64,000 nucleotides of DNA, from positions 1 through 64,000 of the forward strand of contig CAIYSL010000076.1 of the NCBI GenBank assembly GCA_903928915.1. The letters are read 5' to 3'. The position numbers and the translations under genes are program-made. Shown in pieces: positions 20,298 through 26,941 of this stretch. The DNA comes from an uncultured Syntrophobacterales bacterium (GTDB lineage Bacteria; Desulfobacterota; Syntrophia; Syntrophales; UBA5619). Position 1 is the first letter of the stretch; every line of letters starts with the position of its first letter. The notes beneath the pieces were generated by a model. The model saw only the letters and a list, made by a program, of their open reading frames with translations, was not told where the DNA came from and did not search any database.

Positions 20298-22115
20298 TTA
20301 CCCGCGGGTGAGGAGGCGCCCCGTGCCGTCGGGGAGCGTGCGCACCTCGGCAGCGCCATTTCGTCCGCCGACCAGCGCCAGGAGATTGGCGACATGCCTC
20401 TTCAGCGACTCGGCCTGGGCGTTGAGCTCTTCGGAAGCGGCCGCCGACCCCTCTGCCGTGGAGGCTGTCTGCTGCAATACCTTGTCCATTTCGGCGATCG
20501 CCGTATTCACCTGGAGGATCCCCTGGGCCTGCTGTTCCGATCCGGTGGCGATCTCATCGACGAACTGGCCCACCTTCACGGAGATCGTCGCATTTTCCTT
20601 GAAGGCCTCCTGGGTCGACTTCGTCAACTCAGTGCCGTTCTGGATGGCTTTGATCGTATCGTCGATCAGGTTGTTCGTGCTCCGCGCGGCTTCGGCCGCC
20701 CGCAGGGCCAGGTTGCGCACCTCGTCGGCCACGACGGCGAATCCGGCCCCCGCTTCGCCGGCACGCGCCGCCTCGACCGCCGCGTTGAGCGCCAGCAGGT
20801 TGGTCTGAAAGGCGATCTCGTCGATCGTCTTGATGATCTTGCCCGTCTCCCGGCTGGAGCGCGTGATCTCGTCGATCGCCGTCACCATCGTTCCCATGTG
20901 TCCCTCCACCTTGGTGACGATGTCGCTGACATCCGTCATCATCGCCTTGGCCTGGCCGGCGTTGTCCGCGTTCTGCTTGGTCATCGAAGACATTTCCTCC
21001 AGCGACGCTGACGTCTCCTCGAGGGTGGCCGCCTGCTCGGAGGTCCCCTCCGCCAGGCGCTGGCTCGAAACGGAGAGTTCATTCGCCGCTGCGGCGACCT
21101 GGTGCGACGCCTCCGCCAGGTCTTCCGCCACGGCCGCAATCGGCCGGGAGATGCTGCGCCCGATCAGGAAGGAGAGGGCCCCCGTGGCAAGGATGACCAG
21201 CACCAGAACGACGCTCATCCAGAGAATGCTCCCCCGGGCGGATGCCCGGATCTGCATCGCCTCCGTTTCTACCCCTGCTGTTTCACTCTTCCCCAGGGCG
21301 TCGATGCCCTCGACCAGGAGCGTGGCGCTGCTGAAAAAGGCCTTGGGGTCGGCCCCGAAGCCCCCCTTGTCGGCATTCTTGACGACGACATCGAACATCC
21401 CGGAAACGTCGCGCCAGGCCGCAGTCTGCTGGAGCGACCGGATCTGCCGCTCCACGTCCGGCGAAACGGTGAGTACCGGTGATTCGAGGCTCGCCGAGAC
21501 GCGCGACCTGAAGGAGACGATGAGGTTGAACTGCTCCTGGGTAAGCGGTTTGTCCGCCGCCAGGATGCCGCTCATGAACCCGCGCAGCTTCGCCATGTTC
21601 TCCTTGGCGTCTTCGAACAGCGAGACGTTGACGAACCGCTTGCCCAACCCCCGGGTCGTCTTCCCGCGGATGGCCAGGGTCTGGGCGCCGATTACTTCCG
21701 TGATCAGGGCGGTGTAGTTCGCGAAACTCTCACCCATGGGGATCTTTCGCTCCACGTCCGCCCGGAGAGTTTCCAGTCGCGCCAGGCTCTGTCGTTTCGC
21801 CTCCTTCGCGGTCGGTTCTATGCGCGCCTGGTCGACTGCCCGAACGAAAGGTTCCCGGGTCAGGTCGGTCTGTTTCCTCTGCCCCTGCAGTTCGCCAAGG
21901 CTCATCGCCCCGTTGATGAAGATGTTCGACTGCCCGCGCTCCTTCTGGAGCTGGGTGATCACCAGGGACGCTTCCTTTACCAGCTTTGCGTTCTGGTACA
22001 TGATCTGGGCCGTATCGACCTCCCCCCATTCGCTGCGGATCAGCGAGGCCGCGAAGAGTATTACCAGTAACATCGGCAGGATGGCCAGCAGGGCTATTTT
22101 CCGGGTGATCGTCAT
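20298..22115 (-). CDS. Methyl-accepting chemotaxis protein with NIT-type sensor
   Basis: Inner-membrane chemoreceptor of 605 residues. A first membrane helix lies at about 9-27, followed by a periplasmic domain to about 290 whose start ([16 protein letters not shown]) resembles the nitrate/nitrite-sensing NIT domain. The second helix is at about 295-320, then HAMP and a long signalling coiled coil. The hairpin tip is canonical ([20 protein letters not shown]), so CheA/CheW coupling should be intact. The ATG at 22115 follows GAGAGGAGA; the open frame beyond it is spurious. It lies 499 bp downstream of an orphan molybdate-type binding protein on the same strand, suggesting the two could sense the same anion. 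Its tip is nearly identical to that of the receptor at 46725. Confidence 0.93.
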
Positions 22116-22614
22116 CGTTCGGTCTCCTCTCGAGGGTATTCTCGGCCCGGCGGCCGGTCTGCGCCGCCTGCGGTCCGATCTTCGGAGAGAACGGCTGCAA
22201 CTTCCATGCCTGAGGCAAGTGACGAACGTGGCGCTGCCGGGTGTGCGGTTTGCAGGGTCCCCGCGTGCGGAACAGGCCTGCTGGCCTGCCGGAGACACGT
22301 CTCGGATTTAAGGCGAGCAGAGATAGGGAGGGATAAAGGCGTCCGCTCGCGCCGGATGACGTCCGGAACGTGCGGACGATATCCGATCCGGCCGGACGGA
22401 CCGGGCACGGGTCGCGAGGAGGCGCTCCCTCCTGTCTGCGCTGCCGGTAGGGACATAAGCGTGAAGGGACAATGGGCTCTAGCGCGCTGTCGAGTCGACC
22501 TGCGGGTGGTTTCAGGCTTTCTGCGCGAGGGACCGGGGCCGTGTGGGGGGGCTTGGCTTGCTGGCCGGAGAAAATGCGGCCCGCCGCCCTGGCAGGAGGC
22601 GGGCCACGAGAGGA
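22116..22614. other. Long intergenic region before the NIT-type chemoreceptor
   Basis: A 499-bp gap with no convincing gene. It holds the terminator of the binding-protein gene at its right end and presumably the receptor promoter. No clear sigma70, sigma54 or sigma28 element could be picked out by eye and no riboswitch was recognised. Confidence 0.5.
22570..22606 (-). terminator. Intrinsic terminator of the ModA-like gene
   Basis: Minus-strand stem GGCCCGCC / GGCGGGCC (8 bp, 12-nt loop) followed by GCATTTTC, starting ten bases after the stop codon. It separates the binding protein from the downstream chemoreceptor. Confidence 0.7.
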
Positions 22615-23505
22615 TTACTTCAGTTCCGGAGGGAGCGCGCCCGCGGTGATCGGCGGGACGATAGGGGGCTGACCGGTCGCCTCGAGGATCCTGCGTCCCT
22701 CCTCGGAGAGGAGGAACCGCACGAACTGGATCCCCGCTGCCGGTTCCGTGGCGGTGGCGGGAACGGTGGCGGCATTGCGGATTTCGCTGCTGATGTTGAC
22801 CGTCGCGGGAAAGCGCTGGATATCGATCGCGTTCTTCGCTTCCACCGCTGCGGAGTAGTAGACGACCCCTGCATCGGCCTTGCCGGTGACGACGTCCTGG
22901 ATCGTCTGGGGAACGGTGTGCACCTGGCCGGCATCCACGACGGCCCCGTCGATGATCTTCTGGGCGAGCTCGGGCTTGCCTTCGAGGCCGGCGACGTTCC
23001 GCACGAAGTCGATCGTCCGCCGGGTGCCCAGGTCCTTTTCGCCCGTCACCCGGGTAAAACGGACGCCCGGCCCGGCCAGGTCGGTGATCTTTCGGATCCC
23101 CCGCGGGTTTCCCTTGGCCGTGATCAGGACCATCTCGTTTGCCGAGAAGATGACGGACCAGGATGCGGCGGTAGCCTCAGCCCCGGCCACCTTCTTCGTC
23201 ATCAGCACCTTCTCGACGACCGCCGGCGACGACGGGGCGAACACGTCGCAGCGGTCCCCCTTCAGAATACGCTCCGCCAGTTCCTGCGAACGGCCGGAGG
23301 TGAGATTCACCGTCACGGAAGGGGTGCGGGCCTCGAAGGCGGCCTTGAGCGCCTTCATCGGACCGGCGAGGGAATCGGCGTGGAACACTTCGAGCTGGGC
23401 CGCCATAGCCATACCTCCTGAAACTGAAAAGATGAGTCCAAACGCAAGAGCAACCGTGACCAGGATGGACAACCGATGGTGTCTGTAGGCTCTTTTTGTG
23501 TCCAT
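22615..23505 (-). CDS. ModA-like periplasmic oxyanion-binding protein (no transporter genes adjacent)
   Basis: Periplasmic binding protein of 296 residues with a signal peptide (basic start, hydrophobic segment to about residue 37, AMAA cleavage region). The mature protein starts LEVFHADSLAGPMKAL, the first strand and ligand loop of molybdate/tungstate-type binding proteins, and keeps the hinge and second lobe (ADAGVVYYSAAVEA, FVRFLLSEEGRRILEATG). It is probably an oxyanion binder; molybdate, tungstate and sulfate cannot be told apart here. The ATG at 23505 follows GAGGAGG. Unusually, no permease or ATPase gene is adjacent; the next gene on the strand is a chemoreceptor, so it may be a chemotaxis co-receptor or serve a transporter elsewhere. 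Confidence 0.88.
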   Translation of the reverse strand: MDTKRAYRHHRLSILVTVALAFGLIFSVSGGMAMAAQLEVFHADSLAGPMKALKAAFEARTPSVTVNLTSGRSQELAERILKGDRCDVFAPSSPAVVEKVLMTKKVAGAEATAASWSVIFSANEMVLITAKGNPRGIRKITDLAGPGVRFTRVTGEKDLGTRRTIDFVRNVAGLEGKPELAQKIIDGAVVDAGQVHTVPQTIQDVVTGKADAGVVYYSAAVEAKNAIDIQRFPATVNISSEIRNAATVPATATEPAAGIQFVRFLLSEEGRRILEATGQPPIVPPITAGALPPELK

Positions 23506-23750: not shown

Positions 23751-24962
23751 ATGATCAAGATCAACGGGATGGTTCACCGGGAGGCGCTCGACGACATCAT
23801 CCGCAGGTGGATGTACGATGAGGCGTGTCCGGCGGACGCCGATCTGATCACCCGGCTGGTGCACTTCAACCACGTCTACATGTCGCGCTGGCTCGCACAG
23901 TTCAGCGGCCGCATCTTCCGGGAGCTGCACGGGGAAGAACTCTCGCTCCGTCCCGTGCGGATCAAGGGTGAGCTCAAGGATGTCCTGGTTTCCGATCCTC
24001 GCTACCGCAACGAACGGATCGACGAGCTGATCGGCGATTACCACCGCAATCCCGGCCGCTACTACCGCGAGACCCCCTTTCACGGAATGCTCTACTTCCG
24101 CCGGCGCAACGGCGGGGAGGAGTGCGTCGGCTCTTCCCGGATCAAACGGGTGCGCCGCCTGGCGGAGAAGTCGGCCCGCCGGATCATCGACCGGCTGTTC
24201 GTGATGATCAAGGAACACGCCGACACCCTCGCGGATGAGCGGGCCCTGCGGCTCGGGATACCCCGGGTTCAGCTCCTGACCACGCCCGAGGACATGATGG
24301 AGGAGTTTCTCGCGGCGGAGAACCGCCTCCTGGATGACCTGAAGAACAAACGATCGATCGCCGGGCTCGGCGATGAGTTGGCGATCAACGACGTGGCAGG
24401 GGTCAAGGTGACCCTCGAGGCGGAGCAGCAGGGGAAGCTGACGGCTCTGCTCGGGCGTCTGCCCGATTGCGAGATCGTCGAGATGGAGCGCCACTCCGGC
24501 AGGTACAACGCGACGAACCTGATCGTCCGGTACCGTCCGCCCCGGGAAGCGATCCTCGCCCCCCCCTTGGGAAGGGGGTTTCTCGACGCCATGCAGGGAA
24601 GGGGGTTTTCGCCGGACGATGCAAACCGCGCCTTCTGTGAATTTGTCCGGTCCGGGGAGGAGGACGTCCTGGTGGAGATCATCCTTTCAACCTATCAGGA
24701 GATGCTGGAGAGCGAGATCGGCTGCTGCATCCACGAGGACAGGATCATCGAACAGCGCCTCCGGCAACAGTATCGCGGGCCGCTGGCAAGGAACATCCAA
24801 TGTCTGCTCGAATACCTGTTTACCTTTCCCTCCTCGCCTTCCTCCTGCCAGTGCGAATTGGGCGAACTGCCGATCAAACTTTGGAACCGCTACCTTCCCG
24901 ATTATTTCGACGAGGTCCTCAAGCAGCTCTTCCACATCCCCACGTTTACCGACCTGGATTAG
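23751..24962 (+). CDS. Divergent RelA/SpoT-fold nucleotidyltransferase-like protein
   Basis: Soluble 403-residue protein without a clear named family. Three segments line up in order and spacing with the synthetase domain of RelA/SpoT enzymes: INDVAGVKVTLE near 212 (compare the Asp-x-x-Gly-Val-Arg strand), RHSGRYNATNLIVRY near 245 (compare the Gly-Tyr-x-Ser-x-His loop) and VEIILSTYQEMLESEIG near 307 (compare Val-Glu-Ile-Gln-x-Arg-Thr). The strand Asp and Glu are kept, but the GTP-stacking Tyr-x-Ser-His motif and the EIQIRT motif are altered. So it may be an inactive regulator or use another nucleotide. The first 170 residues are unfamiliar and helical. It stands alone between divergent and convergent neighbours. 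The gene call is sure; the fold assignment is tentative. Confidence 0.85.
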   Translation: MIKINGMVHREALDDIIRRWMYDEACPADADLITRLVHFNHVYMSRWLAQFSGRIFRELHGEELSLRPVRIKGELKDVLVSDPRYRNERIDELIGDYHRNPGRYYRETPFHGMLYFRRRNGGEECVGSSRIKRVRRLAEKSARRIIDRLFVMIKEHADTLADERALRLGIPRVQLLTTPEDMMEEFLAAENRLLDDLKNKRSIAGLGDELAINDVAGVKVTLEAEQQGKLTALLGRLPDCEIVEMERHSGRYNATNLIVRYRPPREAILAPPLGRGFLDAMQGRGFSPDDANRAFCEFVRSGEEDVLVEIILSTYQEMLESEIGCCIHEDRIIEQRLRQQYRGPLARNIQCLLEYLFTFPSSPSSCQCELGELPIKLWNRYLPDYFDEVLKQLFHIPTFTDLD

Positions 24963-25001: not shown

Positions 25002-25862
25002 CTACCCGCGGCCCTGTTGCGCCGCCTCGACCTGCTGCTTTTCCTGGGTCATCCGGAATCCTTCGTCAAGGAGCCACTCCGCTTCCCGCGACCGGATGCG
25101 CGGGTTTTTCGCCCCCATCACGACCGCGATCAGCCGGGTGTCCCCGCGCTTTGCCGTGGCCACGATGTGGTACCCCGCCTGGTGGACCCAGCCGGTTTTC
25201 AGGCCGTCCGCGTTGGGGTAGCGGCTCAGGAGGGTATTGCGGTTGTGCTGGGTGATCCGCCGGTAGGTGTAGTACTGCTGGGAGTGGATGTCCAGCGATT
25301 CGGGAAAGTGCCGCAGATAGGCGCGGGCCAGGGTCAGGATGTCCCGGGCCGTCGTGAACTGGCCCTTGGCGGGAAGCCCGTTGGGGTTCTTGAAGTTGCT
25401 GTTGACCATCCCCAATTCGCGCGCCTTCCGGTTCATCCGCTCGACGAATTTTTCGGTGCCTCCGCCGATGTATTCGGCAACGGCCACGGAGGCGTCGTTA
25501 GCCGATACGACAGCCATTCCCTTGAGGAGCTCTTCGAGGGGGAGCGTGCTGCCGGCCTGGAGGAACATCTTCGATCCGCCGGTCTTCCCTGCCTTGCGGC
25601 TGATCCGGACCGCGTCCTGGGGACGGACCTCGCCTTGCCGGATCGCCTCATCGGCGATGTACAGCGACAGGACCTTGGTGATGGAGGCCGGCTGGATGGC
25701 GGTATCCGCGTTATGACTGAAGAGGACCCGGTCGGTCGTCATGTCCAGAAGGATCGCCGAACGGCAGGTGAGTACGGGGCCCGTGGACGCGGAAAGGTTT
25801 GCAGCGAAAAGCAGGACCGTCAGGATTGCCGCCAGGACCAGGGTGCGCTTGGCGATCGTCAT
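25002..25862 (-). CDS. D-alanyl-D-alanine carboxypeptidase (peptidase S11, DacA-type)
   Basis: Periplasmic penicillin-binding peptidase that trims or cross-links peptidoglycan stem peptides. The 286 residues open with a signal peptide (hydrophobic 8-24, then SAS). All three active-site motifs are present: SITK (nucleophile Ser and Lys) near 60, SAND near 117 (the SxN motif) and KTG near 220. It is a catalytic-domain-only form, about 100 residues shorter than E. coli DacA, lacking the carboxy-terminal beta domain and membrane anchor, as in PBP7-like proteins. The ATG follows AAGGAGACGG. A palindrome separates it from the upstream Tim44-like gene. Confidence 0.94.
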   Translation of the reverse strand: MTIAKRTLVLAAILTVLLFAANLSASTGPVLTCRSAILLDMTTDRVLFSHNADTAIQPASITKVLSLYIADEAIRQGEVRPQDAVRISRKAGKTGGSKMFLQAGSTLPLEELLKGMAVVSANDASVAVAEYIGGGTEKFVERMNRKARELGMVNSNFKNPNGLPAKGQFTTARDILTLARAYLRHFPESLDIHSQQYYTYRRITQHNRNTLLSRYPNADGLKTGWVHQAGYHIVATAKRGDTRLIAVVMGAKNPRIRSREAEWLLDEGFRMTQEKQQVEAAQQGRG

Positions 25863-25926: not shown

Positions 25927-26910
25927 TCACTCGGCCTGATTGATGGCTGCGAGCCTCCAGGGGTTGTCTCCCACCGGACGGGTGAATGTCCAGTATTCGT
26001 TGAACTTCACCGGCTCCGTCCGGCTGCCCGCCACGACCTGGTTCGTTTTCTCGTCGACGGTGGTGTCCAGCAGGTTTGCGTGAATCCGCACGGTGATGAA
26101 ATCCGCTCCCCCTTCCTGCCAGACCTCGGTGATACCGACCGAACGGACGGCGATGTTGTCCAACCGGTTGATCTGCCCCCTGCTCTTCAGCTGTTCTGCC
26201 TCGCGCTGGAGTTCTCCGAACATCTCGTCGGTGAGCAGGTTCCGTACACCGGACAGGTCGCGGTTCGCCCAGGCCCCTTGGATCTGGAAGAAGCGGTCCA
26301 TACACCCGTCGGTGAAGCGCTGCTCGTCGAACCGGGGATCCATCTGCCGGATGTGGCCGATACCCGCGGCCACGTCGTTTTCCTGCCCGTACGGTTCAGC
26401 GACCGGGGCCGACGGGACCGTCCTGCCGAGATCGGCCGGTGAGGTTTCCCGGTAGTAGCTGGTCCCGGACTGCGGCCCTTCGGCGGCGGCCCGCCGCCGT
26501 TTGATGAACCAGTAGATCCCATACAGGAGCGCGCCGATCAGGAGGATATCCATCAGCCCGATGCCGCCGCCGAAACCGCCCGCGCCGCCACCGGCGAACC
26601 CGAGGCTGCGGAACAGCATCGCGCCGAGCATCCCCCCGACGAGTCCGCCGGCCATGCTCCGGAGAAACCCGCCGCCCCCGAGGGGAGAGGGCGCAGGCGC
26701 GGCCGGGGTGTTGAACTGCCGCGAACCCTGGGAGGGGCTGGACGGCGCCGGCGCGGGCGTCGCGCGGGGTGCGCTGTAGGAACGGGAGCCCCTGCTTCCC
26801 ATGGACCTGCCGCCGCCGGCCCGGGCCCAGGCATCGATCTCCAGGACCGATACCAGAAAGAAAATCGTGAAAATGATCAGGCCGGATAGGGCCCACTTAT
26901 TCTTGAACAT
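25927..26910 (-). CDS. Tim44-like domain membrane protein
   Basis: 327-residue protein with an amino-terminal hydrophobic segment (residues 8-28), a Gly/Ser/Pro/Ala-rich linker (about 35-90), a glycine-rich stretch and second membrane segment near 125-145 (IGLMDILLIGALLYGIYWFI), then a soluble carboxy-terminal domain of about 160 residues. This last part (MDRFFQIQGAWANRDLSGVRNLLTDEMFGELQ) is the Tim44/MBA1-like fold common in bacterial proteins of unknown role. It ends NEYWTFTRPVGDNPWRLAAI, typical of that domain. The start at 26910 follows GAGGAGGG. Function is unknown; bacterial members are membrane-associated, with folding or transport roles only proposed. Confidence 0.88.
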   Translation of the reverse strand: MFKNKWALSGLIIFTIFFLVSVLEIDAWARAGGGRSMGSRGSRSYSAPRATPAPAPSSPSQGSRQFNTPAAPAPSPLGGGGFLRSMAGGLVGGMLGAMLFRSLGFAGGGAGGFGGGIGLMDILLIGALLYGIYWFIKRRRAAAEGPQSGTSYYRETSPADLGRTVPSAPVAEPYGQENDVAAGIGHIRQMDPRFDEQRFTDGCMDRFFQIQGAWANRDLSGVRNLLTDEMFGELQREAEQLKSRGQINRLDNIAVRSVGITEVWQEGGADFITVRIHANLLDTTVDEKTNQVVAGSRTEPVKFNEYWTFTRPVGDNPWRLAAINQAE

Positions 26911-26941
26911 AATTCCCTCCTCGAATGACAAAATTTGGCGA

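Follow-up and report, generated by a model that had tools for sequence, protein, structure and literature searches.

A divergent stand-alone protein with the RelA/SpoT synthetase fold in Syntrophales and other bacteria

The window, a stretch of 64,000 nucleotides from an uncultured Syntrophobacterales bacterium (contig CAIYSL010000076.1, positions 1 to 64,000), carries on its forward strand an ORF (23751-24962) that runs from an ATG to a TAG codon and encodes a protein of 403 residues. This ORF is a real gene, as a scan of one genome per species returned 60 matched loci encoding the protein. Upstream, in divergent orientation, lies a gene for an SBP_bac_11-family periplasmic binding protein (22615-23487, minus strand), and the minus strand also encodes, at 20298-22298, a chemoreceptor that combines an MCP signalling domain with a NIT domain for nitrate/nitrite sensing. 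Downstream, two convergent neighbours follow, a D-Ala-D-Ala carboxypeptidase gene at 25002-25862 and, at 25927-26931, a gene for a Tim44-domain protein. The genome also encodes a single long Rel (L001), in which the HD hydrolase motif HDTVED can be read.

Sequence-based annotation of the 403-residue protein returns little. No Pfam family matches it by hmmscan (E <= 10), and the Pfam scan reports none of the HD, TGS, and ACT domains, in agreement with the initial annotation, which had described a RelA/SpoT-like protein devoid of them. PF04607 gave no match: neither hmmscan nor a PF04607 search of the own genome recovered the protein, and the gathering cut-off of this model was not reached. Scans of NCBIfam, PHROGs, and PADLOC report nothing above noise, and an HMM search of the PDB sequences with the family profile returns no RelA/SpoT match. 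The latter search reports LINE-1 ORF1p (E 0.015, residues 70-157), a borderline hit that drops to E 0.72 with the profile of the N-terminal part alone and was set aside. The N-terminal sequence displays no apparent signal peptide. A literature search, which covered subscription journals only in part, found no description of the family.

The AlphaFold2 (AF2) model, computed with 54 relatives in the input (pLDDT 87, pTM 0.85), and the conservation among 47 family members, down to 31% identity, define the following features:

23751..24962, + strand: gene for the SYNTH-fold protein P0001 (ORF, 60 homologous loci, AF2 model)
23751..24113, + strand: N-terminal part, residues 1-121 (AF2 model, conservation)
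24114..24200, + strand: predicted ATP-donor strand and helix, residues 122-150 (47/47 invariance, published residues, profile alignment)
24201..24365, + strand: helical insertion, residues 151-205 (AF2 model, R-to-D distance)
24384..24407, + strand: predicted metal-binding strand 212-INDVAGVK-219 (conservation, published residues)
24492..24518, + strand: predicted acceptor loop H248-x-G250-x-Y252-x-A254-x-N256 (conservation, published motif roles)
24537..24659, + strand: second helical insertion, residues 263-303 (AF2 helices 265-301, Y252-E309 distance)
24672..24737, + strand: predicted catalytic strand and helix with E309, I311, S313, E322, G324, and H328 (conservation, offsets)
24738..24959, + strand: C-terminal helical region (conservation, AF2 model)

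The N-terminal part (residues 1-121) is modelled with helices (10-21, 29-60, and within 72-104) and two strands (64-71 and 109-119), and contains the near-invariant residues H9, R10, R19, W20, D29, K72, D77, Y97, P101, R106, and P109. Modelled alone, it has no convincing fold match, the best VIA-align hit being a histidine-kinase helical hairpin (Z 5.1) among only 46 chains; a new fold does not follow from this. Its net charge of +3 makes it weakly basic, the whole protein being at -7. The C-terminal helical region is marked by the invariant residues E329, R331, Q335, R336, N348, P374, L382, and P383. The core carries two insertions. The first one, which is not found in known SYNTH domains, stretches the distance between the donor Arg and the metal-binding Asp to mostly 83-84 residues, versus 26-29 in FaRel2 and SaRelP, while the second one, located between the acceptor Tyr and the catalytic Glu, brings the distance from Y252 to E309 to 56-58 residues, versus 20-25 in plasmid-borne SAS. 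The three segments on which the initial annotation had based its RelA/SpoT assignment are all present, namely 212-INDVAGVK-219, G250-R-Y252 (placed then near 245), and 308-VEII...MLESEIG-324. However, the claim that they also follow the spacing of the synthetase core does not hold, since ~55 extra residues precede Asp214 and ~40 separate Tyr252 from Glu309.

Structure comparison assigns the model to the RelA/SpoT synthetases. Foldseek analysis against the PDB reports only two matches with E < 0.001, both with B. subtilis SAS1/RelQ (5dec, E 5.9e-4, probability 1.00), with low TM-scores (0.19/0.39) because the protein carries insertions. The VIA-align list has 16 rows with Z >= 8, all of them RelA/SpoT synthetases, with a best Z of 9.8 (144-147 residues aligned, rmsd 3.4-3.8). 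Enzymes of this kind form an unbroken run of 20 rows at the top of the list, from Z 9.8 to 7.5, and are followed by DNA polymerase lambda/beta and MenT1 at Z 6-7.4. The alignment with CapRel (Z 7.5, 175 residues, residues 9-340 of the model) is longer than that with RelQ but has a lower Z, and the SaEAS structure scores Z 7.3. The viral structure library returns zero matches at E <= 0.001.

Profile comparison leads to the same assignment once the insertions are taken out. The whole family profile gives a weak hhalign hit (14.7%) with eight diverse plasmid-borne SAS, covering the stretch from the Asp strand to the Tyr loop. After removal of the two insertions, the hit with the same eight SAS rises to 91.5% probability (pairwise E 8.7e-7). 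Its score of 43.6 compares with 19.0 for the best of 60 column-shuffled controls, and one alignment path takes in the donor motif, D214, Y252, and E309; as the cuts were chosen from the structural model, this is a supporting test rather than a blind one. With and without the insertions, hhalign aligns Y252 to the Tyr of GYRSLH. The comparison with long RSH failed for the full profile, and did not rise above the shuffles after removal of the insertions. The RelA/SpoT SYNTH fold of the 403-residue protein is thus supported by the structure search, the insertion-free profile comparison, and the residue equivalences with published structures, all in accord with the fold proposed from the sequence at the outset.

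S. aureus RelP stacks R78 and R112 on the adenine of the donor, whose phosphates are contacted by K80, S84, K88, and R91; D107 and E174 hold the Mg2+ ion, and Y151 binds the acceptor (PMC5794853). The FaRel2 equivalents are R64, R95, K66, S70, K74, R77, D90, E145, and Y128 (PMC11782079). These positions can be traced in the family. The donor motif R130-x-K132-x3-R136-x3-K140-x2-R143 is invariant (47/47), and its offsets (0/2/6/10/13) are identical to those of SaRelP R78/K80/S84/K88/R91 and FaRel2 R64/K66/S70/K74/R77, although the Ser at offset 6 is replaced by Arg136. The metal ligand Asp214, equivalent to SaRelP D107 and FaRel2 D90, is found in all 47 members, as is K219, five residues downstream, which corresponds to SaRelP R112 and FaRel2 R95; G217, at three residues from the Asp, is kept in 46 of them. 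The acceptor-stacking Tyr252 is also invariant (47/47), and lies 38 residues after the Asp, the same distance as in FaRel2. The catalytic Glu309, the counterpart of SaRelP E174 and FaRel2 E145, is present in 46 of 47 sequences, the remaining one having an Asp, and the metal-binding Asp/Glu pair is therefore retained. G250, A254, E322, and G324 are invariant as well, and E322, G324, and H328, at +13, +15, and +19 from E309, match the E/G/H of long RSH from the same order (Glu at +13 in 16 of 17). Shuffling the conservation string reproduced the R-x-K-x7-K-x2-R motif in 3 of 200,000 trials and the full ordered motif set in none of 200,000; a local shuffle of residues 100-150 yielded the donor motif 26 times in 200,000. 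The "unfamiliar" amino-terminal domain of 170 residues proposed in the initial annotation thus loses residues 122-147, which form the ATP-donor strand and helix with R130, K132, R136, K140, and R143. By leaving the donor motif in this domain, that reading took the site as more degraded than it is.

The departures from the canonical enzymes are concentrated on the acceptor side and in the EIQIRT motif, so that the earlier description of altered catalytic motifs applies to these two elements and not to the donor and metal residues, which are essentially invariant. The DYIxxPK-like element present in all 25 RSH/SAS sequences compared is found in none of the 47 family members. In the acceptor loop, S-x-H is replaced by A-x-N (last position Asn in 43, Ser in 3, and His in 1 of 47); the Tyr-x-Ser-x-His loop, described earlier as not conserved, has therefore lost its Ser and His but kept its Tyr. 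Accordingly, the guanosine-specific G-loop signature DYIxxPK...GYxSxH is not matched by the 403-residue protein. EIQIRT is reduced to its Glu: Ile311 stands in for the Gln of ExQ, and the Arg, correctly noticed as not conserved, is Ser313 in the window protein, this syn4 position being Ser in 34 of 47 members and Arg in 0/47. The most distant member (L100:1492-2658) exhibits the acceptor loop Y-N-A-V-H, nearer to the canonical Y-x-S-x-H, and has the Asp at the position of the catalytic Glu.

Full-length relatives, from 75% down to 43% identity in the one-genome-per-species scan, are found in Syntrophales and elsewhere in the Desulfobacterota, in Myxococcota, and in Thiocapsa, a purple sulfur genus of the Chromatiaceae, and a distant subfamily (31-33% identity) was added from 297 genomes of the phylum. 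Cultured strains with a relative include Desulfatitalea alkaliphila (L037) and Thiocapsa roseopersicina (L055). In the taxonomic family, 20 of 21 genomes carry the gene, the lone exception being 79% complete, and all 9 of the good-quality genomes do; in the order, the count is 54 of 155, and nearly every carrier has one copy. The gene tree is in broad agreement with taxonomy and groups Thiocapsa and its gammaproteobacterial relatives in one clade, and the phage, plasmid, and viral-contig collections contain zero copies of the gene. Its neighbours are clade-specific and mostly metabolic: a fumarase C-terminal domain protein or the D-Ala-D-Ala carboxypeptidase in Syntrophales, GAPDH in Desulfatitalea, a radical SAM protein in Thiocapsa, and a PDZ-domain protein in the group labelled Myxococcota. 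No conserved partner gene or antitoxin was found in 58 close and 9 distant loci, so that the gene indeed stands alone. This distribution, together with differing neighbours and no conserved partner, identifies it as a vertically kept chromosomal resident, unlike the pattern of a toxin-antitoxin pair. In one Syntrophaceae clade, to which this arrangement is confined, the gene adjoins a divergently transcribed guanylate-kinase-domain protein, hence one of nucleotide metabolism (L017:4863-5384 and L059:5025-5765, with a similar stretch at L015:2-244).

We consider it likely that the protein is an active, chromosomal, stand-alone ATP-dependent 3'-pyrophosphokinase on the SYNTH fold, with a rebuilt acceptor pocket; its catalysis, acceptor, and role are what we infer beyond the computed fold, conserved residues, distribution, and absence of a partner. 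Its mode of action is probably like that of a small alarmone synthetase. By analogy with the structures named above, the cytosolic, stand-alone protein would hold ATP between R130 and K219, with the phosphates on R130, K132, K140, and R143, and Mg2+ would be held by Asp214 and Glu309. The acceptor base would stack on Tyr252 while Glu309 would activate the acceptor 3'-OH, to which the beta-gamma pyrophosphate of ATP would pass. As the family has no DYIxxPK loop and has Y-x-A-x-N for Y-x-S-x-H, the acceptor is probably bound otherwise than in RelA or RelQ, and the product is probably a related pyrophosphorylated compound. Since the gene is vertically kept on the chromosome beside a bifunctional Rel, its role would be regulatory or housekeeping rather than that of a toxin. 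The PF04607 miss, the PDB-sequence search without a RelA/SpoT match, the weak uncut hhalign hit, the comparison with long RSH that stays within the shuffles, the low TM-scores, the Ile in place of the ExQ Gln, and the Ser in place of the EIQIRT Arg all speak against this reading.

Among known systems, RelQ/SAS1 and RelP/SAS2 of B. subtilis and S. aureus are alike in their stand-alone SYNTH fold (VIA-align Z up to 9.8) without HD, TGS, or ACT, in the offsets of the donor R/K/K/R, in the metal Asp and Glu, and in the acceptor Tyr. The family protein is, in contrast, about twice as long, with its N-terminal part and two helical insertions, escapes PF04607, has Arg136 for Ser84 and an ExQxR reduced to its Glu, and lacks DYIxxPK and SxH. 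The toxSAS FaRel2 and CapRel, which are tRNA pyrophosphokinases, have in common with it the SYNTH fold, the donor offsets, and N-terminal helices ahead of the core; the family differs from them by its single-copy chromosomal gene without antitoxin partner and by the Ile replacing the ExQ Gln. The long Rel of the same genome has the donor R-x-K...K, the metal Asp, the catalytic Glu, and the E/G/H at +13/+15/+19 in common with the family, which differs in having no HD, TGS, or ACT domain and no DYIxxPK. Within the SYNTH superfamily, the family is best regarded as a new, divergent branch that belongs to none of the described subgroups tested.

Apk1 and Apk2 and the exported (p)ppApp synthetases bear on the acceptor. 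The adenosine 3'-pyrophosphokinases of the MuF toxin study have G-x-N in the acceptor loop, versus the SxH described as recognising guanosine, and YH replaces IR in their fourth motif (PMC12226406). Apk2 resembles the family in having Asn at the position of the His of guanosine enzymes (GxN and AxN being similar, not identical), and its EIQIRT Arg is not kept either. The family differs from these enzymes by the loss of the ExQ Gln, by a lower structural score (Z 7.3 with SaEAS), and by having neither a secretion-domain fusion, nor an immunity gene, nor an apparent signal peptide. The likeness of A-x-N to G-x-N makes an adenosine-type acceptor (ATP/ADP/AMP or an RNA 3'-adenosine) a reasonable guess and our leading one, held with reserve. 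However, conversion of GxN to SxH left the specificity of Apk2 unchanged (PMC12226406), and such swaps make A-x-N a weak predictor. A guanosine nucleotide appears somewhat unlikely as acceptor, and what remains goes to some other molecule.

Two of the alternatives amount to the active 3'-pyrophosphokinase with its acceptor fixed. A plain (p)ppGpp synthetase, which would bind GTP/GDP despite the altered loop and feed the stringent response in parallel to Rel, fits the retention of Tyr252 and of all donor and metal residues, and has RelP and RelQ as closest structures, and its ppGpp could be removed by the long Rel with its HDTVED motif. Yet DYIxxPK, found in all the RSH/SAS sequences compared, is absent throughout the family, and the guanosine-recognising SxH is AxN here, which makes this reading unlikely. 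An enzyme that pyrophosphorylates the 3' ends of RNA (tRNA CCA or similar), as a regulator or rescue factor and not as a toxin, is less likely still: the D-to-Y distance is that of the tRNA pyrophosphokinase FaRel2, the CapRel alignment exceeds that of RelQ in length, and AxN is adenosine-like, but one common loop length is weak evidence, CapRel scores below RelQ in Z, the N-terminal part is only weakly basic, and the whole protein has a negative net charge.

The initial annotation had left three options, an alarmone synthetase variant, a toxin, and an inactive regulator, of which the active variant is now favoured over the two others. A catalytically dead protein that uses the SYNTH fold to regulate or to sense nucleotides would fit the two large insertions and the missing Gln and Arg of ExQxR. 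Pseudoenzymes, however, usually lose metal, donor, acceptor, and catalytic residues, and here Asp214, the donor R/K/K/R, Tyr252, and, but for one Asp, Glu309 persist across deep divergence, so this option is improbable. Even less probable is a toxSAS toxin of a toxin-antitoxin or phage-defence pair, to which the fold and donor site common to FaRel2 and CapRel point: the gene is single-copy and near-universal in the taxonomic family, lacks a partner in all loci inspected, and has no copy on phages, plasmids, or viral contigs and no PADLOC match. Membership of another nucleotidyltransferase family (Pol beta-like or MenT-like) is hardly credible, as such chains, although present in the structural comparison, score lower than every RelA/SpoT chain with Z >= 8, and the protein has a RelA/SpoT-specific donor motif and profile match.

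Most descriptions of known adenosine- or RNA-specific SYNTH enzymes concern toxins or exported enzymes. A possible, still tentative, reading of the active 3'-pyrophosphokinase is that of a conserved non-toxin chromosomal family pyrophosphorylating a non-guanosine acceptor, either an adenosine nucleotide or an RNA 3' end, in normal signalling or housekeeping. If so, a partnerless, vertically inherited, single-copy family would extend alarmone-type chemistry to the core physiology of bacteria known largely from metagenomes, and syntrophic, sulfate-reducing, and purple sulfur bacteria would have a second alarmone-type pathway next to Rel, with whole branches missed by the annotation model PF04607.

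Some copies of the gene contain stops or frame shifts, or are split in two (L038, L019, and L045, and genomes G435, G022, G327, and G391); in some metagenome-assembled genomes, these broken copies may reflect gene decay or misassembly. Genome G020 possesses, instead of the usual single one, two full-length copies of differing divergence (C31:2908-4098, E 1.9e-174, and C89:24103-25281, E 1.8e-138).
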